This document shows positions 21,838 to 40,465 of a DNA stretch of 47,857 bases, piece after piece. Source of the DNA: Bacillota bacterium. Lineage in GTDB: Bacteria > Bacillota > Clostridia > Lachnospirales > Lachnospiraceae. Positions within the stretch are counted from its first letter, which is position 1, and each line of letters starts with the position of its first letter. The translations under genes were made by a program, and so were the position numbers. Location: positions 1 through 47,857 of the forward strand of contig JAEWYQ010000035.1 in assembly GCA_023395555.1 (NCBI GenBank), in the 5' to 3' direction. Under the pieces are notes generated by a model. It worked only from the letters and a program-made list of their open reading frames with translations, had not been told where the DNA came from and made no database searches.

Positions 21838-24800
21838 ATGATTAATACCTCAGAACAGTATAGAATACAGGAATATATCCAGGGAACCGAGAGCAGTGAG
21901 ATCTATAAGGCCATAGATTCCCTGACGGGTGAGCCCGTAATCTTAAAAACAATTAACACAGAGACCATGAGCCCCAAGGCGCTGGCAAAGCTTCGAAATG
22001 AATACAATATCCTGCAAAAGCTGAAGAGCGGCTATGTTCCCAGGGCGATTGATTTTGTGAAGCTGGATCAGACATTTTTTCTGGTGATGGAATACTGTGG
22101 AGGGGTTTCTCTATCCCAATATATCAAAGAGCGCAGAATGTCCGTCAAGGAGTTTCTGCATCTTGCAATCGAGATTGTGGGCGGCCTTTCCGAGATTCAT
22201 AAGGCGGGCATTATACACAAGGATCTGACCCCCTCCAATATAATTTATAATCCCCGGACGAGGAAGATTACAATTGTTGATTTTGGCATATCGGCGGAAT
22301 TTTCCTTCGAGAAGCCTTTGATGGTTGATCCGTCAGCTTCGGAGGGGACTTTATTCTATATTTCACCGGAACAGACAGGAAGAATGAATTGTCCTGTTGA
22401 TTTTCGCACGGATTTTTATTCCCTGGGTATTACCCTTTTCGAAATGCTTTGCGGACGCCGTCCGTTTGATTCCGCAAGCCCGGCAGAGCTGATTTACGAT
22501 CATGTGGCAAGAGTTCCTCTGGCCGCCAGAATGGTCAACTCCGAGGTTCCGGAGATGCTGTCCCGGATGATTTTCAAGCTTATGACTAAGATGCCGGAAA
22601 ACCGATACCTTAGTACGGAAGGCATTCTTTTTGATTTAAAGAAATGCCTGGCTTATTATGACGAAATTTATGAAATACCGGAGTTCCAGATGGGACTTGG
22701 CGATTATTATGACCGGATTGAGATACCCCATAAGCTCTACGGGCGGGAAGAGGAGAGCGTAGTTCTGGAGGAAGCCTACCATAGTATTTTGAAAGGCGGA
22801 AGATGTGCTGTCTTCATCAGCGGACAATCCGGAGTCGGGAAGACCTCCCTGGTAGGAGAGGTTTATAAGCATGTTCTGGAATCAAACGGAATTATGATTA
22901 GCGGTAAGTTTGATCAATATCATAGGGATATCCCGTATTATGCTCTTTTTCAGTTGGTTGGAAACTACTGCGATGCCATTCTTTCGGAAAATGAGAATAC
23001 CATTGCCATCTGGAGAAAATGTATCTCTGAGGCTCTTGGTCAGGACGCTGTCCTGCTGGTTGATAAGGTTCCCCGGTTAGCGCTGATTATCGGACAGCCC
23101 CAGCCCTTGCCGGAGCTGTCGCCTGTTGAGGCGGGCATAAGATTCAAGGCAGCGGTGCAAAGAATGCTGGCAGCGGTTGCGTCCCCTCTGCAGCCGGTGG
23201 TTATCTTTATTGACGATATTCATCTCGCCAATTCCGAGTCCATGGATATTCTGGGAGAAATCATGAGCAATGAAGACATCAGCGGTCTGATGCTGGTGGC
23301 CTGTTACCGGGATAATGAGGTTGACAGCGGCCATCCGGTGAATCTCAGTCTGAACCGGATGAAGCAGCGGGAAATCAATGTGCGCCATCTTTCCCTGTCA
23401 GGGCTCACTCTTTCCGCGGTTACCCGGATGCTCTCGGATACGTTAAACAGCAGTACGGATAAGGTTATGGAGCTGGCCGGAATTGCTTACAGCAAGACAC
23501 ATGGAAATCCATTTTACATAAAACAGTTTTTGATGCTTTGTCACCGGGACGGGATGATTCGTCTTGGAGGGCCGGGCAGGGATTGGAGCTGGGATTTGGA
23601 TGCCATAAAAGTCTGTCCCGCCAAAGAGAATGTGATTGATTTTCTCACCAGGAATACGGATCAGCTTTCCGAGGAAACGGTAAGCCTTCTTTCGATTGGG
23701 GCATGCGGCGGTCAGAGCTTTTCCACCGGTTTTCTGGCCGGTATATCGGGTATGGAGCAGGAGGAAATATCCCGCCTGCTGAAGCCGGCTGTGACCATCG
23801 AGGTGATTTATCCGATACAGAATGATGATGGGGATAGCGCATGGATCCGGTTTCAATTTGCTCACGATAGATTCCAGCAGCTGTTCTATACGATACTGCC
23901 GGAGGACAGAAGATCTGATATTCATTATGCCCTTGCAAAATGCTATGAGGAGGGCCGGTACTGTACCGGAGGGAACGAGGATATACAGTTCTACATGGCG
24001 GACAATTACGCCAAAGCCTTTGAACGCATCTCTCCGGCAAAGGAAAAGAAACGTGTTGCCGGGATTCTCCTGAAGACTGCCCGTGCGGCAACCCTCCTGG
24101 CTTCTTATGATATGGCGGCCCGGTATCTGGAGCAGATTATTGGCTTCCTGGAGCAGGCGGCAGATAATGAGGATGCTTTGCAGGCAGAAGAGGAATTTAT
24201 TTTTTCGGTTTATGCGGCATACCATCTGGTGCTTTGCGGTCTGTCCCGCTATGAAGAGGCGGATGAGATTTACCGGCAGCTTCAAAGGCTTACCGCTGCC
24301 CCTGTTGATCTTACCGAAAGCTGCTGCCTGCAGGCGGTAAGCCTGTCAAATCGTGGGAGATACCGGGATGCTTTCTTCCTTGGCATCGGGCTGCTGGAAA
24401 CACTGGGAGTACATTTCCCCGAAGAGGATCTGTATCCCACTACCCTGGCTGAAATTGAAGAATACTACGCGGAATTCAGGGGAAGAAATTACGAGGGAAC
24501 CCTAGCGGAAGATAAAAAGGAGTTTGCAATCGCCAGAATACTTAACCGGATTGCGGCGGCCAGCTTTTTCTGCGATCCCCTTTATTCCTCCTGGACGATT
24601 ATTACCAGCGCCAGAAGGAGCCTGGTATATGGTTATACTCCGGACGGGCTGCAGCTGTATGCCAGTCTGATGCATGTTCTGGTACCATTTCGGAATGATT
24701 ATAAGAGAGCCTATGAGGCTGCCTGTGCGGCTAAGAGAGTGGCGGAGCAGGGGGGATACAAGAATGAGCTTTATAGGGTATACCATGTATTTTCCTTGTT

Positions 24801-26859
24801 CACCTGTCATTGGTTCGAGGATCTGAAGAACAGTATCCCTTATGCGCGTGAATCCTTTAAGGGGAATGTGACCACAGGTGATTTCGAATTTGCCTGCTAC
24901 AGTTATTTTACGACCCAGCAGGCCGTACTGGAGACGGGGCAGAGTATCGGGGAGCTTTTCTCAGAGAATGAGGCAGCCCTGGCTTTTGCTAAGAAAACAG
25001 GGAATCTCCATGGGCTCCAAAGCTATCTCAGCTATACGCAGCTGTATAAGGCGCTGAAGGGAACGACAAATTCCTGGGGAAGCTTTGAGGACGATGGTTT
25101 CCGTGAGGAGGAGCACCTTGAGAATATACACACCAATCTCATGGCCCGGTGCTACTTTTATATTCTGCGGGCCCTGTCCGCCGCCATTTACCTGGATTAC
25201 GACAAAGTATATGAATTGACGGAAGCGGCGGTGCCGGTGCTTCCGGCAATTACCGGCTTTTATCCCCTGGCCCTTCATAATTTCCTCCACTCCCTCTCCA
25301 TCTGCAAGCGGATGGAAAAGGAGGATTGCGGCAGTGAAGAGAGGAAGAGGCTTCATGAGGTGCTGGATCAAAACCAGAAATGGCTGCAGGAAAGAGCGGC
25401 GGATGCTCCCGGTAATTTTATGCACTTATACAGCGCTGTCAAAGCGGAATTAGCGGGCTTTGGCGGCAGCGCAATTGAATCGGTCATGCTCTATGAGAAA
25501 GCGATTCGGGAAGCGGAAATGAGCAACAGACCCTACCATTATGCGATTATCTGTGAGCTGGCCGCCCAGCGTTTTCTAAAGCTCAACAGTCCGAAAACCG
25601 CAGCTAATTTTTTAAGAGAGGCATATGCAACATACCTTGCCTGGGATGCGGACGGAAAAGCCCGGCAGCTTAAGGAGAACAATGAGGGGCTGTTTCATGT
25701 AAGTGCCATTAGTAAAAGGAATCACGGCATCATGTCCCTGAGCGGCACTTCCGTGACCAGATCCAATATTGACTTCAATGCTCTGATTACTGCCTCCCAG
25801 ACGATTTCGGAAGAAATCAACCAGGAGGCTATCCTGGAGAAGCTTATCCAGATTCTGCTGGAGGTTTCCGGGGCGCAGGTTATTTATTATATAACGAAAA
25901 ATGAAGAGGGCAGATTTATCATCCGTGCGGAGGGGCATTCGGAAGGCGGGAAGAAATGCAGTATAGAGAAACGTGCGGTGGAAACGGACTGTATCTCTCT
26001 GCGGATCTTGAATTATGCGGACCGGACCAGGGAAACGGTTGTGCTGGATGATGCGTCGGTTTCCAATATGTTTAAGCTGAATGACTATGTCCTGGCCTGC
26101 GGCTCCAAGTCGATTCTGTGCATGCCGGTGATTAATAAGAGAGATTTGAAAGGCTTGCTGTATCTGGAAAATAAGCTGATTGAAGGAGCTTTTGACAAGA
26201 AGCGTCTGGAGGCTCTGACCACCATTGCCTCCCAGCTGGCGATTTCTCTTGAAAATGCTTATCTCTACAGCAATCTCAAGTTTCTGGTAGACAATAAGAC
26301 GAAGGAGTTGAGGGAAGAGATCGGAATTCGTAAGCTTGCGGAGAAGCGCCTTCAGCACATGGCAAACCATGACAGTCTGACGAATCTGCCCAACCGGCGG
26401 ATGTTCCAGAATTTTCTGGAGCACTCCCTGGAGGCGGCGTCTTATGATAAAAGTATTATTGCGGTTTTGTTCGTCGATCTGGACGGCTTCAAGTCGGTGA
26501 ATGACTATTATGGGCATGAGAAGGGCGACCTTGTTCTGGTTACGATTGCCGAGAGGCTGCTGGATACCATCAGAGGCTGTGATATGGTCTCCAGGCTGGG
26601 GGGAGATGAGTTCATCCTGGTAATTGAGAACGTGAAAAGCAAAAACGCAATTGAAAAGCTGTGCCAGCGGATTATTGATACCATTGGCGAACCCATCCAA
26701 ATTGATGAGGATGGAACGAAGGTAGTGGTCACTTCCAGCATAGGCATCTGCCTGTCGAAGCAGAACGGAAGTAAGGTGGAAGAGTTGATCAGCAATTCCG
26801 ACCGGGCTATGTATGTCGCAAAGGAAAGGGGCAAGAATCAATATAGTTTTTACTATTAA
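21838..26859 (+). CDS. Giant signalling protein: Ser/Thr kinase, AAA ATPase, helical repeats, GAF, GGDEF
   Basis: Residues 1-275 form a protein kinase with the ATP lysine K37, the catalytic HKDLTPSN (127-134) and DFG (148-150). LYGREEE at about 300 starts an AAA/ORC-like ATPase with Walker A GQSGVGKTS (329-337) and an FIDDIHLANS Walker B near 460. Residues about 690-1290 are all-helical, TPR-like. A GAF domain covers about 1310-1480. A short coiled coil leads to a GGDEF domain with GGDEF at 1588-1592 and an RxxD inhibition site (RGCD) five residues before it, so it should make cyclic di-GMP. Kinase-AAA-GAF proteins usually end in a histidine kinase; here a cyclase takes that place. No membrane span. 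The gene is monocistronic with a TAAAAT -10-like box upstream and a terminator after it. Confidence 0.9.
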   Translation: MINTSEQYRIQEYIQGTESSEIYKAIDSLTGEPVILKTINTETMSPKALAKLRNEYNILQKLKSGYVPRAIDFVKLDQTFFLVMEYCGGVSLSQYIKERRMSVKEFLHLAIEIVGGLSEIHKAGIIHKDLTPSNIIYNPRTRKITIVDFGISAEFSFEKPLMVDPSASEGTLFYISPEQTGRMNCPVDFRTDFYSLGITLFEMLCGRRPFDSASPAELIYDHVARVPLAARMVNSEVPEMLSRMIFKLMTKMPENRYLSTEGILFDLKKCLAYYDEIYEIPEFQMGLGDYYDRIEIPHKLYGREEESVVLEEAYHSILKGGRCAVFISGQSGVGKTSLVGEVYKHVLESNGIMISGKFDQYHRDIPYYALFQLVGNYCDAILSENENTIAIWRKCISEALGQDAVLLVDKVPRLALIIGQPQPLPELSPVEAGIRFKAAVQRMLAAVASPLQPVVIFIDDIHLANSESMDILGEIMSNEDISGLMLVACYRDNEVDSGHPVNLSLNRMKQREINVRHLSLSGLTLSAVTRMLSDTLNSSTDKVMELAGIAYSKTHGNPFYIKQFLMLCHRDGMIRLGGPGRDWSWDLDAIKVCPAKENVIDFLTRNTDQLSEETVSLLSIGACGGQSFSTGFLAGISGMEQEEISRLLKPAVTIEVIYPIQNDDGDSAWIRFQFAHDRFQQLFYTILPEDRRSDIHYALAKCYEEGRYCTGGNEDIQFYMADNYAKAFERISPAKEKKRVAGILLKTARAATLLASYDMAARYLEQIIGFLEQAADNEDALQAEEEFIFSVYAAYHLVLCGLSRYEEADEIYRQLQRLTAAPVDLTESCCLQAVSLSNRGRYRDAFFLGIGLLETLGVHFPEEDLYPTTLAEIEEYYAEFRGRNYEGTLAEDKKEFAIARILNRIAAASFFCDPLYSSWTIITSARRSLVYGYTPDGLQLYASLMHVLVPFRNDYKRAYEAACAAKRVAEQGGYKNELYRVYHVFSLFTCHWFEDLKNSIPYARESFKGNVTTGDFEFACYSYFTTQQAVLETGQSIGELFSENEAALAFAKKTGNLHGLQSYLSYTQLYKALKGTTNSWGSFEDDGFREEEHLENIHTNLMARCYFYILRALSAAIYLDYDKVYELTEAAVPVLPAITGFYPLALHNFLHSLSICKRMEKEDCGSEERKRLHEVLDQNQKWLQERAADAPGNFMHLYSAVKAELAGFGGSAIESVMLYEKAIREAEMSNRPYHYAIICELAAQRFLKLNSPKTAANFLREAYATYLAWDADGKARQLKENNEGLFHVSAISKRNHGIMSLSGTSVTRSNIDFNALITASQTISEEINQEAILEKLIQILLEVSGAQVIYYITKNEEGRFIIRAEGHSEGGKKCSIEKRAVETDCISLRILNYADRTRETVVLDDASVSNMFKLNDYVLACGSKSILCMPVINKRDLKGLLYLENKLIEGAFDKKRLEALTTIASQLAISLENAYLYSNLKFLVDNKTKELREEIGIRKLAEKRLQHMANHDSLTNLPNRRMFQNFLEHSLEAASYDKSIIAVLFVDLDGFKSVNDYYGHEKGDLVLVTIAERLLDTIRGCDMVSRLGGDEFILVIENVKSKNAIEKLCQRIIDTIGEPIQIDEDGTKVVVTSSIGICLSKQNGSKVEELISNSDRAMYVAKERGKNQYSFYY

Positions 26860-30190: not shown

Positions 30191-32968
30191 ATGGAGATAA
30201 CAGAAGAATTCTATAACTCAGTGATTGATAATATGATGAATGGGTTTGCCTATCACAGCATTATAACGGATAACGACGGCAACCCTATTGATTATAGATA
30301 CATTCAAGTAAATCGGGCATTTGAGGAATTTACAGGTTTGAGGCGGGAAGACATCCTTGGCAGGACGCTCCGCGAGTTTATGCCCTCCATCGATCACGAT
30401 TCCCTCAGCTGGGTTAAATTTTTTGGCGAGGTTGCCTTAAGCGGGAACCCTAATGTTACCGAGCAATACTCCCAGGCCTTTGATAGATGGTATTCTGTCA
30501 GTGCCTTTTGCCCTCAGATAGGATATTTTATTGCGGTGTTTGTTGATATTACGGAGCTGAAGGAGCAGGCACATAAGCTGCAGATGAAGCATCAGGAGCT
30601 GAGGAAGGTATATAAAGGGCAGTCGCAGCTCTATCGGGAGCTGCAGGAGAAAAATGAACAGCTGCTTGCCGCCCAGAAGGAAATAGAGAGAAATGAACGC
30701 CGCCTGAGCAAGGCCCAGCAGATCGCACATGTGGGCAACTGGGAGGTGGATTTGGCGACGGGCCGGTTCTGGGCCTCCGACGAGACACGGCGTATCTATG
30801 AGATTGACGGACCCCGGCGGGATATTGATTTTAAGGAAGTAATTGAAAAATATGCGGGACAGAATCCGGATGAACTCAGGGAATATGTGAGAAGCTTCCT
30901 GGAGGAAGGTATCGGCTCTGACATGAAGGTAGAGATCCGTACGGTCAAAGGTACGGTTAAACATATTCATTCCCTGCTGGAGACGGAGAAGGATGCCAAG
31001 GGAAAGCACACCCGCCTTCTTGGTGTGGTAAGGGACATTACCAAGGATGTGGCGGATGAGCTGGAGCTGAAGAATAAGAACGATGAATTGAGCTCGCTTT
31101 ATGAGGAGCTTCTTGCCTCCGAGGAGGAGCTGAGGCAGCAAAATGACGAGCTGCTCCAGAAGAAGGAAGAAATCACGGCCCTTTATGAGGAACTGTTATC
31201 CCAGGAGGAAGAGCTCCGAAGCAATTATAGCCAGTTAAATGACAGCATGGTCCGTTTGAATAAGATGGAGGAGACCAACAAGCTCATCATTGAGGCAACC
31301 TCGGAGGGCGTATGGCAATATGATATAGCGGAGGACAGATATACCATTTCCAGCCAGTTTGCCGAGGGGCTTGGATACCAGACGGAGAATTTCCCCAGTA
31401 TCTATTACCTGGATCGTATCATTCATCCCGAGGACAGGGAATATTCCAGTCAGGTTCTTTCCGCTTATCTTTCCGGTAAAGCGCCTAAATATGAGGTGGA
31501 ATTCCGGTTTATCTGCAAGGATGGCTCCCACCGGTGGGTTAAGTCCTCCGGTAAGGTGTTAAGGGACACGAAGGGAAAGCCTTATTTGATGGCCGGTTCC
31601 TTTATTGATATTACCAGGATGAAGGAGCAGCAGAGCAAATTGGAGCATCTGGCTTACCATGATATGCTGACGGATCTGCCCAACCGGACTCTCTTTTTGA
31701 AGGAAATGGAGCAGGCCCAGTTAAGGGCGGACAGGGAAAAACATAAACTGGCCGTTATTTATATGGATCTGGATAATTTTAAAGATGTCAATGATATGCT
31801 GGGACACAGCACCGGTGACCGGCTTCTTCAGATTATGGCGGACCGGCTTCGGGGACTTGTTTCAGGACAGGAGATAGTGACCAGGCTGGGAGGGGATGAA
31901 TTTGCCATCCTTCTTGTTGATATTAACAGTGAGCAGGAAGCCTATCATTACTGCCTCAGAATGAAAGAAAGTGTGTTAAAGCCTTTTGAGTTCAATGGCT
32001 ATCGCTTGAATATCAGCCCGAGCATGGGAGTTGTCATGTATCCCGACATCACGGGCAGCAGTGAGGATCTGCTGAAGAACGCCGATGTGGCAATGTACCG
32101 TGCCAAGAATATGGGAAAGAATAATATTCAGTTTTACCGGGACAGCATACGTACGGATATCTTAAAGCGGATGACCATAGAGAGTCATCTGAGGGAGGCT
32201 CTGCACCAGGAGCGTTTTACCTTGAATTATCAGCCCCAGATCTGTCTGAAAAACGGAAAAATCAGGGGCTTTGAGGCTTTGGTCCGATGGACGGATGAGG
32301 AATTGGGAGTGCTTTCCCCGGCTGAATTCATTCCTATTGCAGAGGGAAGCGGTCTGATTGTACCCATGGGGGAATGGATTCTGTATGAAGCCTGCCGTCA
32401 GGCTAAGGAGTTCTGCTGCTATGGCATTGATTTTCTGATCTCGGTTAATATTTCGGCAATTCAGTTAAAGCAGACGGATTTTGTCCATAAGGTAAAGAAG
32501 ATTCTCAATGCGACCGGGCTTCCCGCACGGCATTTGGAGCTGGAAGTGACCGAGACCATGATGATCAGCTCCTTTGATTCCAGTATTATCATGCTGGAGG
32601 AGCTTCGGGGGCTGGGGATCAAGATATCTCTGGATGACTTTGGGACAGGCTACTCCTCTCTGAGTTATTTGAAAAAGCTTCCCATTGATGTCCTTAAGAT
32701 AGACAGGAGCTTCATCCACGATCTGGACAGCGAACAGTTTAAGAATGCAATTACCGGTGCGATTATTTCCCTGGTACATGAGCTGGATATCGAGGTAATT
32801 GCAGAGGGAGTGGAGACTGGCAAGCAGCTGGAGTACCTGCATCAGTGCGGCTGTGACAGTATCCAGGGGTATCTTATGAGCAAGCCTGTGCCGGCCTGGA
32901 ATGTCCCCGCCTTATTTGAACGGGATTTTGCCAAAGAGCTTGGGATTAAGGAAGCGGAACAGCCATGA
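30191..32968 (+). CDS. PAS-PAS-PAS-GGDEF-EAL cyclic di-GMP enzyme
   Basis: The 925-aa protein has a PAS domain at about 5-125, a coiled coil, a second PAS at about 175-288, a long coiled coil (EELLASEEELRQQNDELL-type heptads, 290-360), a third PAS at about 365-478, a GGDEF domain (GGDEF at 567-571) and an EAL domain (FEALVRW, with EAL at 695-697). EAL metal and catalytic motifs are all present: VNISAIQL, ELEVTETM, DDFGTGYSSL and AEGVE. The phosphodiesterase side therefore should be active. The cyclase lacks an RxxD inhibition site. No membrane span: a cytosolic sensor. Its TGA overlaps the start of the TetM-like/Rae1-like gene, so translation of the two is coupled. Confidence 0.93.
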   Translation: MEITEEFYNSVIDNMMNGFAYHSIITDNDGNPIDYRYIQVNRAFEEFTGLRREDILGRTLREFMPSIDHDSLSWVKFFGEVALSGNPNVTEQYSQAFDRWYSVSAFCPQIGYFIAVFVDITELKEQAHKLQMKHQELRKVYKGQSQLYRELQEKNEQLLAAQKEIERNERRLSKAQQIAHVGNWEVDLATGRFWASDETRRIYEIDGPRRDIDFKEVIEKYAGQNPDELREYVRSFLEEGIGSDMKVEIRTVKGTVKHIHSLLETEKDAKGKHTRLLGVVRDITKDVADELELKNKNDELSSLYEELLASEEELRQQNDELLQKKEEITALYEELLSQEEELRSNYSQLNDSMVRLNKMEETNKLIIEATSEGVWQYDIAEDRYTISSQFAEGLGYQTENFPSIYYLDRIIHPEDREYSSQVLSAYLSGKAPKYEVEFRFICKDGSHRWVKSSGKVLRDTKGKPYLMAGSFIDITRMKEQQSKLEHLAYHDMLTDLPNRTLFLKEMEQAQLRADREKHKLAVIYMDLDNFKDVNDMLGHSTGDRLLQIMADRLRGLVSGQEIVTRLGGDEFAILLVDINSEQEAYHYCLRMKESVLKPFEFNGYRLNISPSMGVVMYPDITGSSEDLLKNADVAMYRAKNMGKNNIQFYRDSIRTDILKRMTIESHLREALHQERFTLNYQPQICLKNGKIRGFEALVRWTDEELGVLSPAEFIPIAEGSGLIVPMGEWILYEACRQAKEFCCYGIDFLISVNISAIQLKQTDFVHKVKKILNATGLPARHLELEVTETMMISSFDSSIIMLEELRGLGIKISLDDFGTGYSSLSYLKKLPIDVLKIDRSFIHDLDSEQFKNAITGAIISLVHELDIEVIAEGVETGKQLEYLHQCGCDSIQGYLMSKPVPAWNVPALFERDFAKELGIKEAEQP

Positions 32969-35745
32969 AGGGTCTGAAGAAGCTGGTAGTCGGTATTTTA
33001 GCCCATGTAGATGCAGGGAAGACAACCCTGGCGGAAGCCATACTCTATCGGACGGGAAGTATTCGCAGATTGGGCAGGGTTGATCATGGCAATACCTTTT
33101 TAGACACCCATGACCTGGAACGGGCCCGGGGAATCACCATTTTTTCAAAGCAGGCGGTATTTAAGCAGGCCGACATGGAAGCAACCCTGCTGGATACGCC
33201 CGGTCATGTGGATTTTTCTGCGGAGATGGAGAGAACTCTGCAGGTGCTGGATTATGCAATTCTGGTCATCAGCGGGAGCGATGGGGTACAGGGGCATACG
33301 GAAACCTTATGGAAGCTTCTGGCCAGGTATCAGGTGCCGGTCTTTCTGTTCATCAATAAGATGGATCTGGAAGGGACGGACAGAGCCGCTCTGATGGCGG
33401 AGCTGAAGAAGCGTCTCAGTGACGGATGCGTTGATTTCAGCGAAGGACAGGATGAAACGCAGTTTCAGGAGAACCTTGCGGTCTCCGATGAAGGGCTGCT
33501 GGAAGAATATATGGAAACAGGGAAGGTGGAACCCGCAGCTGTGGCGAAGGTGATCCGGAGGCGGGGGATATTTCCCTGTTATTTTGGTTCGGCTCTCCGG
33601 CAGGAGGGGATACAGGATTTCTTGGACGGCCTGGCACAGTATACGCAGAAGCCTCCGCAAAGGGATGAATTTGGTGCCAAGGTATATAAAATTATGAGGG
33701 ATGAGCAGGGAAACCGTTTAACCCTTATGAAGATCACCGGAGGAAGCCTCAGGGTAAAGATGCTGCTGACCAACCGCAGGGAGGAAGCAGCCCAGGCTAT
33801 GTTCGGCGGAAAAGAAGATGAGATATGGGAGGAAAAGGCAGACCAGATACGGATTTATTCCGGTGCCAGGTATGAGGCGGTGGATCAGGCGGAAGCCGGA
33901 ACACTGTGTGCGGTTACCGGACTGAGTAAAACCTATCCGGGTCAGGGACTGGGAACGGAAGCCGGCTCCGATCTTCCGGTGCTGGAGCCGGTGCTGGGCT
34001 ATCATATACTGCCTCCGCCGGATTGTGATGCCCATACATTGCTGTTGAAATTGCGTCAGCTGGAGGAAGAGGATCCCCAGCTGCATGTGGTATGGTCCGA
34101 GCAGTTAAAGGAGATCCATGTGCAGCTGATGGGCGAGGTACAGGTTGAAATTCTAAAAAACCTCATATCAGAGCGTTTTGGCATTGCGGTGGAATTCGGA
34201 GAAGGAAGGGTTGTCTATAAGGAGACCATTGCGGAGCCGGTGGAGGGCGTGGGGCATTTTGAACCGCTGCGTCATTATGCGGAGGTACACCTGCTTCTTG
34301 AACCGGGGGAGCCGGGATCGGGCCTGACCCTGGCCAGCCGCTGCAGTGAGGATGAACTGGACCGCAGCTGGCAGCGGCTGATTCTGACCCATCTGGAGGA
34401 GAAGGAGCATATCGGTGTACTGACCGGTTCTCCGGTCACAGATATGAAGATCACCTTGATTGCCGGACGGGCCCATCAGAAGCATACGGAAGGCGGAGAT
34501 TTCAGGCAGGCAACCTACAGGGCGGTACGCCAGGGGTTAAAGAAGGCAAAGAGCATCCTGCTGGAGCCCTATTACCGCTTCCGGCTGGAGATACCCTCGG
34601 AAACAGTGGGAAGAGCCATGTCGGATATCCAGCGGATGAACGGAACCTTCCTCCCTCCCGACGCGGACGGTGAGATGTCGGTGCTGACCGGGAGTGCTCC
34701 GGTTGCAGCCATGAGGAGCTATCATATTCAGGTGACAGCCTATACCAGGGGACGGGGAAGGCTTTTTTGCACCTTGAAAGGGTATGAGCCCTGTCATAAC
34801 CAGGAAGAAGTAATCCGCACCATCGGCTATGACAGTGAACGGGATCTGGACAACCCTACCGGCTCTGTGTTCTGTGCCCACGGTGCAGGCTTTACGGTTG
34901 CGTGGGACAGGGTGGAGGATTTCATGCATCTGGAAGGGGCCGGCTTAAGGTCTGTTTCGGAAAAGCAGGAGGCAGAAGCCGGACAGGCTGAAACAGCTGC
35001 TATCAGGAAGCGTGCTCATTATGAGATATCCCTGCAGCAGGATAAAGAGCTGGAGGAGATCTTTGTCCGGACATTCGGACCGATTAAGCAGCGGCTGGAC
35101 CCCTCCAAGGGACGTCTTGGAGCGGAGAGAAGAAATCAGAGTACTTCCCCGCAGAAGCAAAAGGACAGTTCCGGCCCAGCTGGTACTCCGGCGAAGGGGA
35201 ACGGCGGAATACAGCAGGCCGCCCTGTCTGATAAAATGTCGGCGAAAGAATATCTGCTGGTAGACGGTTATAATATCATCTTCTCCTGGGAGGAACTGAG
35301 TGAGCTGGCGAAAGATAATATGGACGCCGCGAGAAATAAACTGATGGATATTCTCTGTAATTATCAGGGCTTTAAAAATTGCATCCTGATTCTGGTCTTC
35401 GACGCCTATAAGGTAAAGGGCGGAATTGGTGAGGTTCTGGCATATCACAATATTCATGTGGTATATACAAAGGAAGCTGAGACAGCGGACCAGTATATAG
35501 AAAGGGTGACCCATGAAATTGCGGGTAAGCACCATGTGACGGTTGCAACCTCGGATGCCCTGGAACAGATGATCATATTGGGGAAGGGAGCATTGAGGAT
35601 GTCTGCCGCGGAGCTGAAGGAAGAGGTCAAACGGATCGGGGATCAGATCAGAAGAGAATACCTGGACAGGCCCCGGACGGGACGGGCTTATCTCAGCGAC
35701 CGGTTCACCGAAGAAATCAGAAATGAGCTGGATCAATCAGAGTAG
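32965..35745 (+). CDS. TetM-like ribosomal GTPase fused to a YacP/Rae1-like endoribonuclease
   Basis: Residues 1 to about 700 follow EF-G/TetM throughout: P-loop AHVDAGKT (13-20), ERARGITIF, DTPGH (77-81), NKMD (131-134), and the domain IV-V segments EPYYRFRLEIP and LFCTLKGYEPC. After a Ser/Gln/Gly-rich linker (about 710-758) comes a full NYN domain, LLVDGYN (D767), LVFDAYKVKG (D813), TKEAETAD (D842), VATSD (D864) and GALRMSAAELKEEV. This matches YacP/Rae1, the Bacillus endoribonuclease that cuts mRNA in the ribosomal A site, with its acidic residues kept. TetM alone is about 640 aa, so this is a true fusion of 926 aa. It may clear or protect stalled ribosomes and cut their mRNA. A tetracycline-resistance role is not shown. 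Confidence 0.9.
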   Translation: MKGLKKLVVGILAHVDAGKTTLAEAILYRTGSIRRLGRVDHGNTFLDTHDLERARGITIFSKQAVFKQADMEATLLDTPGHVDFSAEMERTLQVLDYAILVISGSDGVQGHTETLWKLLARYQVPVFLFINKMDLEGTDRAALMAELKKRLSDGCVDFSEGQDETQFQENLAVSDEGLLEEYMETGKVEPAAVAKVIRRRGIFPCYFGSALRQEGIQDFLDGLAQYTQKPPQRDEFGAKVYKIMRDEQGNRLTLMKITGGSLRVKMLLTNRREEAAQAMFGGKEDEIWEEKADQIRIYSGARYEAVDQAEAGTLCAVTGLSKTYPGQGLGTEAGSDLPVLEPVLGYHILPPPDCDAHTLLLKLRQLEEEDPQLHVVWSEQLKEIHVQLMGEVQVEILKNLISERFGIAVEFGEGRVVYKETIAEPVEGVGHFEPLRHYAEVHLLLEPGEPGSGLTLASRCSEDELDRSWQRLILTHLEEKEHIGVLTGSPVTDMKITLIAGRAHQKHTEGGDFRQATYRAVRQGLKKAKSILLEPYYRFRLEIPSETVGRAMSDIQRMNGTFLPPDADGEMSVLTGSAPVAAMRSYHIQVTAYTRGRGRLFCTLKGYEPCHNQEEVIRTIGYDSERDLDNPTGSVFCAHGAGFTVAWDRVEDFMHLEGAGLRSVSEKQEAEAGQAETAAIRKRAHYEISLQQDKELEEIFVRTFGPIKQRLDPSKGRLGAERRNQSTSPQKQKDSSGPAGTPAKGNGGIQQAALSDKMSAKEYLLVDGYNIIFSWEELSELAKDNMDAARNKLMDILCNYQGFKNCILILVFDAYKVKGGIGEVLAYHNIHVVYTKEAETADQYIERVTHEIAGKHHVTVATSDALEQMIILGKGALRMSAAELKEEVKRIGDQIRREYLDRPRTGRAYLSDRFTEEIRNELDQSE

Positions 35746-35782: not shown

Positions 35783-36490
35783 ATGGAGTTACAGGAAGTC
35801 ATGAATCAGCTTCAAGCCCTTGGGTCAGAGCGGACGAAGAAGCTATACATGGGGAACGGTGCAAAAGAGCCTGTCTTTGGAGTAAGCATAAGCGCTATGA
35901 AACCCCTGTTTAAGCAGTTGAGATTTAACCAGTCCATGGCGGAACGGCTCTATGCCACGGGAAATTATGATGCGATGTATCTGGCCGGCATGATTGCCGA
36001 ACCGGATAAAATGACAGAGGAAGATTTTGAACGGTGGATTGCCGGAGCATATTTTTATATGATTTCAGATTATATCGTAGCCGTGACCCTCGCTGAGACA
36101 AGGATTGCTTTTTCCGTATCGGACCGGTGGATTGACAGCGGGAAGGAGCTGGTTATGTCGGCGGGGTGGAGCTGTTATGAATGGCTTCTGGGTACCCGAA
36201 AGGACAACGAATTTGACCGTGAGCATCTTCTGGAGCTGCTGATCCGGGCAGGACAGACTATTCACAGCCAGCCGGACAGGACAAAGTATGCCATGAATAA
36301 TTTTGTGATTGCGGTTGGGGTATCCTATTTACCTCTGCATGACGAAGCAAAAAAGATTGCCAAAGAGATAGGGGAGGTAACGATATACCGGGGAAAGACA
36401 AAGCTTGCGGTTAATCTGGCCGAAGCCGCTATTCAGAGGGAAGCGGAGAAAGGAAAGCTGGGGTTTAAGCGCAGGAATGTCCGATGCTGA
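35783..36490 (+). CDS. AlkD-like DNA alkylation repair protein
   Basis: The 235-aa protein is almost entirely helical, in HEAT-like repeats. MNQLQALGSERTKKLYMGNGAKEPVFGVSI at the N-terminus, the LWATGNYDA-like LYATGNYDAMYLAG and the central W-rich repeats mark the AlkC/AlkD-type DNA alkylation repair family. Such enzymes bind damaged DNA along the concave face of the repeats and remove alkylated bases. In some members the catalytic residues are lost, and I cannot prove activity here. AAGGAGG precedes the start, 37 bases after the GTPase-nuclease gene, so it may share that transcript. A bidirectional terminator follows. Confidence 0.82.
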   Translation: MELQEVMNQLQALGSERTKKLYMGNGAKEPVFGVSISAMKPLFKQLRFNQSMAERLYATGNYDAMYLAGMIAEPDKMTEEDFERWIAGAYFYMISDYIVAVTLAETRIAFSVSDRWIDSGKELVMSAGWSCYEWLLGTRKDNEFDREHLLELLIRAGQTIHSQPDRTKYAMNNFVIAVGVSYLPLHDEAKKIAKEIGEVTIYRGKTKLAVNLAEAAIQREAEKGKLGFKRRNVRC

Positions 36491-37949: not shown

Positions 37950-38296
37950 AGATTAAAAATTCCTTTCCATTCTGTTCTATGCAATATTATAATTGCATGC
38001 ATGCGAGAAGATCGGTTAATCCAATGCAGAAGAATTCTGCAATAGTTTGATTAATCAATCTAATTCAAAATAAAAATAATAATGGGCATGATGAATAGTA
38101 TGATCATACGCCCGCATATTTGCTTTGTGGAAAATCACCACACTTTCTTGATATAATATGTTGCCATTATACATTATTTCTATACAAAATGGAATAGCAC
38201 ATTTTAAAATTTATAACAAAATTTTAAATATAAGTTTTTTTAGACACAGAATTGCCAAAAAATACATTTAAAATCCGGTTAAGGAGGGAAGAAAGA
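37950..38296. promoter_or_regulatory. Divergent regulatory region with several palindromes
   Basis: This gap serves the NCS2 permease (left) and the GH18 gene (right). It holds TTGATTAATCAA (38047-38058) and GTATGATCATAC (38098-38109), both perfect palindromes. The latter lies inside a possible hairpin flanked by GGGC and GCCC. TGCAAT and ATTGCA are inverted around 37980-37997. TATAAT occurs at 38152-38157 without a good -35. AAGGAGGG before 38297 is the GH18 ribosome site. I looked for the conserved loops of a purine riboswitch upstream of the permease and did not find them. Confidence 0.5.
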
Positions 38297-40465
38297 ATGA
38301 AAACGAGAAAAATATTGAAAGAAGCAAGTCGATTAGGGCATTTTAGTTTTATGATATTGGCGGTCTGTTTTGCCGCGGTCTTTCTCTGCCACGGGAAACC
38401 GGTGTCTGTTTTGGCCGCGGAAGGAAATCAGGGCGTGCTGCATGCCTTTTATCCGGCGAATGCGGTATTCTCCGAGCAGATGAAGAAATATATTGACGAT
38501 GTGGATACCTTGAGCTTTGCCTGGAGCCGGATGGATGCCGAGGCTCCGGAGCTGGTCAATACCCAGAAGGGCCTCAATGACAATTGGGGTTTTTACTATC
38601 CTACGGATTTCCATAAGCCGGTGGAATATGCGGCAGGCAAAGGGAAGAGGATACAATTAAATATTTATATGGATGGAAGCGATTGTACGAAGGTGCTTCC
38701 TTATGCAGAGCAGCGCAGCATCATGATTCAGGCGATTGTGAAACACCTGCAAGCGGAGATCCTTCCGGGGAAGGCAATCTATTATGATGGGGTTGTCATA
38801 GATTTTGAAGGCTTGCGCGATACCTCCAGCGATAAGAAAGTATTGGAATATGAAGGAAAGCGGATCAGCTATTATTTTATCCAATTTTTGACCGAGCTGA
38901 AGCAGCAGATGGCGGACGCGGGGAAAAGCCTGTATGTAGCGGTGAATCCCGGACTTTATTATGATGGCTATAATTATGCATCCATTTTAGGGATTGCAGA
39001 CAGGGTAATTCTCATGGCTCACGATTATGAGCCGACGGGGAAGCTGGAGAAGGGCCAGGTTCTTCAGTATACCGGTTACAATGCCCTGGAGCCTATCAGC
39101 AGCATGGCACCCATAGGTGCGGTAAGGCAGGCGCTGAATGAGCTGCAGAGTGCGGCAGCCTCCTCCTCTGATTTATCCAGGGTATGGCTGCAGCTTGTAT
39201 TTGACAGTGCCCAATGGCAGTTTGAGGTAACAGGAGAGCAGGGCTTTCATACGCTGGACAATGCCGCTTTGAGCCATGGGGGAAGATTAACTCCCCTGTA
39301 TCAGTCTATTAAGGCCCGTGTTGATAATACGGACGGTAAGGGTAAGAATATTACCTATGGCTACAATAATGAATTACAGACGCCGTATCTGCAATACTAT
39401 AACAGCTCTGACCGGTTTTGGAATATTATTCTTTATGAAGACAGCAACAGCATCCGTGCCAAGATAGAGCTGGCAAAGACTTACGGACTGGGAGGAATCT
39501 CACTCTGGAGCCTTGGCAATGTGCCGGATTATACGGATGCCTCCGGGAAGAAATACCATCTGGATGTATGGACGGCGATTCAGGAGCAAATGTCTGATTA
39601 TGCCGGGCAGTCCAAGAAGAAGTATATCACCATCGCAGACGCGGGAGTGGAGCAGGCGGTCAGAAATAAGCTGGGTAAGGCGGCAGGCAAATTAACGGCA
39701 GCCGAGCTGCAGTCCATCTTCCGGCTGAAGCTTCCCCAGGGGGTAAAAAATCTGAAGGATTTGAAAAATCTGCCCAACCTGGAATATCTGGATGCGCAGC
39801 AGCTGGGGATCAAGAGCATTGCCGGGCTGGAGAGCCTGACGAAGCTTCGGGTTCTCTATCTCCAGCGCAACAGCATATCGGATATCAGTCCGTTGAAGAA
39901 AATGAAAAAACTGGAGGTGTTGTCCCTGAACGGCAATGGCCTTGCCGATATATCCCCGCTGGCCTCTTTGACCGGGTTGAAGGAATTGTATCTGAGAGAG
40001 AATAAGATCACGGATATCACCCCGGTGGGTAAGCTCGCCAAACTGGAGGTGTTAGAATTAGGGGGGAATTCCATCAAAAAGACGGATGCGGTTAAGAAGC
40101 TGAAAAGTCTGCGCTTGCTGGCCCTGGATAATAATAAGATCACGGATATTAAATCCCTGGCTGGTTTGACGGGGTTGAACAGCCTGTATTTACAGAGAAA
40201 CACCATTAGTGATATTACGCCGCTCTCTGCTCTGAGCAATCTGAAGCTGCTGTCTCTGAACGGCAATAAAATCAGCAGCCTGAAACCTCTGGGTAAGCTG
40301 ACAGGGTTGGAGAAGCTATATTTGAAGGACAATAAGATTACCAGCGTAACGGAACTGAAGAATCTGAAGAATTTGAAGGAGCTTTATCTGAGCGGCAATT
40401 CCATCACGAATTACAGTCCGGTAAGGGGCCTGCAAAAATCTTCGGATTTCAACAGTGATTTTTAG
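38297..40465 (+). CDS. Secreted GH18 glycosidase with leucine-rich repeat tail
   Basis: ATG 38297 is chosen for its AAGGAGGG site, although the frame is open from 38252; the product has 722 aa. A signal peptide ends near VLAAEG (about 40). The next 400 residues are a GH18-type barrel with YDGVVIDFEGL, in which DGVVIDFE (164-171) places the acid at E171, plus VAVNPGLYYDGYNY and a C-terminal GGISLWSLGNVPDY. This is the spore-cortex/peptidoglycan GH18 style (YaaH/YdhD). A short helical cap (about 455-490) leads to ten 22-residue internalin-like repeats of the form L-x-L-x-x-N-x-I-x-D-I-x-P-L. No sortase motif is seen. It probably binds and cuts a chitin-like or cell-wall polymer outside the cell. 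Confidence 0.88.
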   Translation: MKTRKILKEASRLGHFSFMILAVCFAAVFLCHGKPVSVLAAEGNQGVLHAFYPANAVFSEQMKKYIDDVDTLSFAWSRMDAEAPELVNTQKGLNDNWGFYYPTDFHKPVEYAAGKGKRIQLNIYMDGSDCTKVLPYAEQRSIMIQAIVKHLQAEILPGKAIYYDGVVIDFEGLRDTSSDKKVLEYEGKRISYYFIQFLTELKQQMADAGKSLYVAVNPGLYYDGYNYASILGIADRVILMAHDYEPTGKLEKGQVLQYTGYNALEPISSMAPIGAVRQALNELQSAAASSSDLSRVWLQLVFDSAQWQFEVTGEQGFHTLDNAALSHGGRLTPLYQSIKARVDNTDGKGKNITYGYNNELQTPYLQYYNSSDRFWNIILYEDSNSIRAKIELAKTYGLGGISLWSLGNVPDYTDASGKKYHLDVWTAIQEQMSDYAGQSKKKYITIADAGVEQAVRNKLGKAAGKLTAAELQSIFRLKLPQGVKNLKDLKNLPNLEYLDAQQLGIKSIAGLESLTKLRVLYLQRNSISDISPLKKMKKLEVLSLNGNGLADISPLASLTGLKELYLRENKITDITPVGKLAKLEVLELGGNSIKKTDAVKKLKSLRLLALDNNKITDIKSLAGLTGLNSLYLQRNTISDITPLSALSNLKLLSLNGNKISSLKPLGKLTGLEKLYLKDNKITSVTELKNLKNLKELYLSGNSITNYSPVRGLQKSSDFNSDF
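39770..40435 (+). repeat. Ten tandem 66-base units coding leucine-rich repeats
   Basis: Units of 66 bases encode 22-residue repeats (NLEYLDAQQLGIKSIAGL, then KLRVLYLQRNSISDISPL and so on). Their DNA has diverged, with short shared stretches such as ACGGATATCACC and AAGATCACGGATAT. The fifth unit (ELGGNSIKKTDAVKKL) has lost the I-x-P-L corner, so it is the most divergent. The array forms a curved solenoid in the protein. Confidence 0.85.

Follow-up and report, generated by a model that had tools for sequence, protein, structure and literature searches.

Rae1 (YacP) of Bacillus subtilis is described, in the passages of the literature at hand, as an endoribonuclease that cuts messenger RNA (mRNA) in the ribosomal A site. 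A nuclease domain of the same type has also been reported in a second setting: the available passages of Atkinson 2015 (PMC4342817) describe, for ten Clostridiales species, Tet proteins that carry a YacP-like NYN domain, and suggest a role in resistance. Here we analyze a protein that, by its Pfam matches, likewise joins a Tet-type GTPase and a YacP-like NYN domain in one chain, encoded in a 47,857-nucleotide contig of a Lachnospiraceae bacterium (GCA_023395555.1, JAEWYQ010000035.1; the whole stretch is called the window below). Its gene, at 32965..35745 on the forward strand, is an uninterrupted open reading frame (ORF) with an ATG start that encodes 926 amino acids followed by a stop codon. 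The conserved G motifs and NYN acids, the single clade formed by the fusions, their repeated exchange with standalone rae1 and, in some carriers, the decay of the old gene argue for a chromosomal Rae1 delivered by a GTPase. On balance we lean towards seeing in this protein the Clostridia form of Rae1, in which a ribosome-binding GTPase of the EF-G fold would tether the Rae1 endonuclease for A-site mRNA cutting in ribosome rescue. An earlier note on this DNA had described the protein as a TetM-like GTPase fused to a Rae1-like ribonuclease; the passages cited above show that the architecture was already in print.

The domain order is readily recognized, with all features on the forward strand. 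Four Pfam domains of the EF-G-like part score above cut-off, namely the G domain (GTP_EFTU, residues 8-228; 32986..33648), domain III (EFG_III, 341-412; 33985..34200), domain IV (EFG_IV, 414-529; 34204..34551) and domain V (EFG_C, 532-613; 34558..34803), and EF-G_D2 reaches 19.7 bits, below its cut-off of 27. The G motifs are found at residues 13 (AHVDAGKT), 55 (RGIT), 77 (DTPGH), 131 (NKMD) and 209 (SAL). Domain V is followed by a connector with a predicted helix and hairpin and no Pfam match (614-655; 34804..34929), a predicted helix (686-704; 35020..35076) and a linker predicted to be disordered (707-758; 35083..35238). The C-terminal NYN_YacP domain (764-924; 35254..35736) is complete, scoring 177.1 bits against a cut-off of 24.6. 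The claim of the earlier note that all G motifs and all NYN acids are kept in one chain with a flexible linker is thus borne out by motif positions, Pfam and disorder prediction. In a structure search that bears on the GTPase part rather than on the connector or the NYN domain, residues 1-626 match EF-G structures, and the matches listed are all of the EF-G/EF-2 type and reach residue 634 at most; the curated EF-G model itself gives 283.4 against a cut-off of 659.4.

Conservation was assessed in 81 proteins, the window protein and the 80 best loci, which are hence close relatives. The five NYN acids D767, D813, D842, E846 and D864 are invariant in all of them, as are H504, K506, H507, T508 and G510-R514 in the domain IV tip (GRAHQKHTEGGDFR, residues 501-514; 34465..34506; placed by alignment to the TetO loop) and S634, F636, C637, G640 and G642 in the connector; in the 686-704 helix E695 is kept in 78 and I699 in 79. 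The linker is variable: positions 706 and 762 are separated by 26-97 residues, with a median of 35. A divergent fused protein, that of genome G016, retains only KHTE of the tip and lacks C637 and H655.

A search with the NYN region found at least 7986 clusters of suitable length, all passing, and the nearest protein among the matches listed is P0001 from Anaerotaenia torta (Lachnospiraceae), which shares 908 of 926 residues with the window protein and makes that genus the probable source of the window; Acetivibrio cellulolyticus (P0094) is another carrier of the fusion. In a scan of named genomes 591 stretches encode relatives. Because the best 120 of the NYN clusters are all fused, carrying both kinds of domain, and the best 80 loci match near full length (starting no later than query residue 9 and ending no earlier than 889), the fusion is genuine, neither a product of chance nor an assembly artefact.

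By sequence, the NYN domain matches the B. subtilis Rae1/YacP structures 5mq8 and 5mq9 with E 5e-26, and the five acids align to D7, D53, D81, E85 and D104 of the B. subtilis protein. We take these five to be the catalytic set; D767 and D813, the residues singled out for mutation in the earlier note, were correctly named and correspond to D7 and D53. Of the 26 positions that are conserved among standalone Rae1 proteins, the fused domain retains 22. Being a fusion, the window protein has a Rae1-type domain and is not a standalone Rae1. It has also to be asked whether the domain processes ribosomal or transfer RNA rather than mRNA, which was the first prediction made for NYN domains (cited in the available part of PMC4342817) and would sit well with the position of rae1 next to rlmB, a 23S ribosomal RNA methylase gene. 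Given the reports of A-site mRNA cutting by B. subtilis Rae1 and the retention here of most residues conserved in Rae1, we consider such a role very improbable.

A survey of fused against separate forms, which the earlier note had proposed, revealed mutual exclusion. Of 196 Clostridia genomes, 74 have the NYN domain in fused form and 59 as a standalone protein; 63 lack both forms, and not one combines the two, with about 22 expected to do so under independence (74 x 59 / 196). For 62 Desulfitobacteriia genomes the corresponding numbers are 27, 8, 27 and none. The 74 fused genomes comprise 70 with frames of at least 600 amino acids and four with frames of 313-451 that were counted as fused (three with the GTPase match running from contig base 1, and G059, split over two frames), and NYN matches of about 21 bits in G002, G135 and G189, below the cut-off, were disregarded. 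Each of 15 fusion genomes examined has a single NYN domain above cut-off, the fused one. Because a Fisher test of the exclusion (p 6e-16) takes no account of shared ancestry, the case is made from trees and from gene remnants instead.

In the NYN tree, 105 fused sequences (94 distinct; some genomes were entered twice, and eight loci, L171, L175-L180 and L184, were dropped by a motif filter) are split from 33 standalone sequences with a support of 0.99, this and the other supports quoted being taken from unrooted trees. Since the fused NYN domains form one clade, the fusion probably arose once. In the GTPase tree, too, the 81 fused proteins form a single clade (0.93), and the 10 unfused proteins (0.84) stand next to it. 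A species framework was provided by a single-gene RpoB tree built with FastTree for 129 of the 196 genomes (46 fused, 51 standalone, 32 neither; G161 left out), and on this tree the fused and standalone states are interleaved. For the 97 genomes with an NYN domain, 11 changes between the two states are required, compared to 32.6 with shuffled labels; resolving weak nodes most generously leaves 11 (threshold 0.9) or 8 (0.95), and treating unresolved nodes as hard splits gives 12. Well-supported neighbours in different states include G037 (fused) with G066 (standalone), at 0.997, and G159 (fused) with G155 (standalone), at 1.0. Such switches may reflect horizontal transfer or differential loss.

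If the fusion replaced free Rae1, remnants in the gap that the old gene once filled are the expected trace. The order rlmB-rae1-sigH is seen in five of the six standalone genomes examined, with rae1 about 3 kb from rlmB in the sixth, and no intact rae1 follows rlmB in any of the nine fusion genomes inspected, all from relatives. In two loci the identity of SigH was confirmed by a model match; elsewhere it was assigned by sequence resemblance. The 35 fusion genomes with an rlmB locus offered 19 testable rlmB-sigH gaps; two others had gaps shorter than 45 bases, two had overlaps, and 12 had no downstream SigH match within the sequence examined. In translated searches of each gap, compared with 100 dinucleotide shuffles, rae1-like matches beat all shuffles in six of the 19 (G037, G112, G151, G090, G086 and G131), with about 0.2 expected by chance. 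Two of the six, G037 and G112, are clear remnants: the G037 gap matches the rae1 of its neighbour G066 with 70 and 61 bits in two reading frames and has 15-19 stops per forward frame, with the fused frame of the same genome intact at 886 amino acids, and the G112 gap scores 36 bits. The matches in G171, G154 and G206 were reached by one shuffle in 100 and are not claimed as remnants. Searches of the reverse strand did not exceed 20.8 bits in any of the 19 gaps, and positive controls in four standalone genomes gave 122-339 bits. As to gene location, rlmB and the fused gene of G206 (L158, L121) share a strand and are no more than about 5 kb apart; in G189, G135, G037 and G001, where one contig has both genes, the distance exceeds 150 kb.

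The exclusion, the shared residues and the decay at the old site together make a fairly strong case that the fused NYN domain does the work of Rae1. Several observations weigh on the other side. With neither form present in 63 of the 196 Clostridia, the function would be dispensable or some genomes incomplete; the latter may be true of some, 90% completeness being the level requested rather than one read from values. A single-copy gene of any mechanism could show the same exclusion. Of the six remnants four are weak, at 25-29 bits, and the 25-bit ones of G086 and G131 are singly doubtful because as much as 25.0 bits was obtained from shuffles of a single long standalone gap; no remnant was seen in 10 of the 19 testable gaps. 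Finally, the unfused sister GTPase is not linked to standalone Rae1 (6 of 11 genomes with it, 53 of 111 without; Fisher p 0.76), so that the GTPase does not obviously depend on the nuclease, which argues against an obligatory partnership.

These sister GTPases occur in 11 of the 196 Clostridia (L133-L144), with open frames of 645-671 amino acids and one of 729; nine of the 11 genomes supplied the 10 unfused proteins of the GTPase tree, and one genome, G121, has two copies. The five that were aligned share the tip KHTxGGDFR and the connector with the fused protein and end soon after the connector, without an NYN domain. The absence of any association with standalone Rae1, together with such a tip and connector in proteins that lack the nuclease, favours the principal rival explanation, in which the Rae1 nuclease is simply tethered by a GTPase whose own job is a different one, with no coupling between GTP hydrolysis and the cutting of mRNA; the long and variable linker fits it equally. 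A single fused clade repeatedly exchanged with rae1, with the old gene decaying, suggests instead some advantage of the joined form, of unspecified kind, and we judge uncoupled tethering unlikely, while giving it more weight than any other rival.

For a GTPase-delivered Rae1, the following sequence of events can be envisaged. The GTP-bound protein would occupy the factor site, its domain IV placed in the A site; GTP hydrolysis and release would then empty the A site; and the NYN domain, borne on its linker, would cut the exposed codon. Because domain IV and the NYN domain are unlikely to fit together in one A site, action would probably be sequential, or the NYN domain would act on a neighbouring ribosome; we infer the former, with the GTPase opening the A site first and hydrolysis admitting the nuclease. 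In its fullest version, which we offer tentatively and with more reservation than the assignment as a form of Rae1, the protein would be a one-chain, GTP-driven rescue nuclease that senses the stall, clears the A site and passes the codon on to the Rae1 domain, and that, having arisen once, repeatedly displaced free Rae1 across the Clostridia, leaving rae1 fossils behind.

The remaining alternative takes the protein for a chromosomal tetracycline-resistance factor of the ribosome-protection kind, its RNase adding to resistance, as Atkinson 2015 suggested. The best NCBIfam model is indeed tet_protect, the best solved structure by sequence is TetO, and some relatives carry database names of the TetM/TetW/TetO/TetS family (P0020, P0083, H2). 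The tet_protect score is nevertheless 425 bits against a cut-off of 775, every tet model listed is far below its cut-off, and identity to Tet(M) is about 30% over residues 4-607. The proline and valine of the TetO loop, which from the alignment and the usual numbering we take to be equivalent to TetM Pro509 and Val510, align to K506 and H507, a Lys-His pair without exception in the 81 closely related fused proteins. TetM Pro509 overlaps tetracycline, according to the available part of PMC7456112. Plasmids tell a similar story: 947 plasmid records match the whole protein and only two cover 80% of it, and of the 12 records listed 11 are tet(M) or tet(O), the other being a 518-kb Monoglobus replicon with the fusion. 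With the NYN domain alone 23 plasmid records were found, 22 of them called non-mobilizable; two top matches, in Monoglobus and in a 252-kb Agathobacter replicon, are named translation GTPases. The TetM-like GTPase of the earlier note therefore survives as a statement about EF-G/TetM-type domains, seen by Pfam, and the analogy with TetM itself is weakened by the tip, the tet_protect score and the scarcity on plasmids. From these comparisons the fused protein does not look like a typical resistance gene; it may still have some effect on tetracycline action, and resistance as its role we regard as improbable. If this reading is right, proteins now named as TetM-family tetracycline resistance, such as the relatives mentioned above, may be falsely counted as resistance genes.

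Immediately upstream, a PAS-GGDEF-EAL gene (30191..32968, forward strand) overlaps the start of the fusion by four bases. It is taken as an incidental neighbour, and an operon partnership with the fusion was rejected, because no conserved partner was found in 78 contexts (the window and 77 of the 80 loci; L048, L054 and L077, in which no fusion ORF passed the filter, were left out), the commonest neighbour family occurring in 15 at scattered positions. The window also encodes a DNA alkylation repair family protein directly downstream (35783-36490), a 737-residue protein in which internalin-like leucine-rich repeats come after a glycosyl hydrolase family 18 domain (38252-40465) and, upstream of the fusion, a 1673-residue ORF (21838-26859). 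Elsewhere, twelve Clostridioides difficile plasmid records (H4-H15; about 97-150 kb) encode an NYN domain protein that is 41% identical, and thirteen phage-collection records (H21-H33) have NYN-like matches, several of which lie on short contigs that lack annotation and may come from the host.

Should the assignment as a form of Rae1 be correct, a considerable fraction of Clostridia (74 of the 196 sampled) would cut ribosome-bound mRNA by way of a GTPase-linked nuclease rather than free Rae1, and the coupling of GTPase entry to A-site cleavage would be directly testable. Replacement of Rae1 by a fusion was not found in the literature searched, a weak negative given that the main Rae1 papers lie outside the coverage of that search. 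With B. subtilis Rae1/YacP the fused protein shares the NYN domain and its acidic residues, whereas the B. subtilis protein is standalone, has no GTPase and is encoded next to yacO/rlmB. With TetM and TetO it has an EF-G-like multidomain GTPase in common; unlike it, they have other tip residues, lack an NYN domain and are carried by many plasmids. The Tet-NYN fusions of Atkinson 2015 (PMC4342817), in the passages available, have the same architecture and come from the same bacterial group, those passages being without the Rae1 exclusion, the unfused sister clade or the rae1 remnants. The window protein is thus one more member of an architecture already known, and the new element seems to be what the fusion replaces, namely free Rae1.
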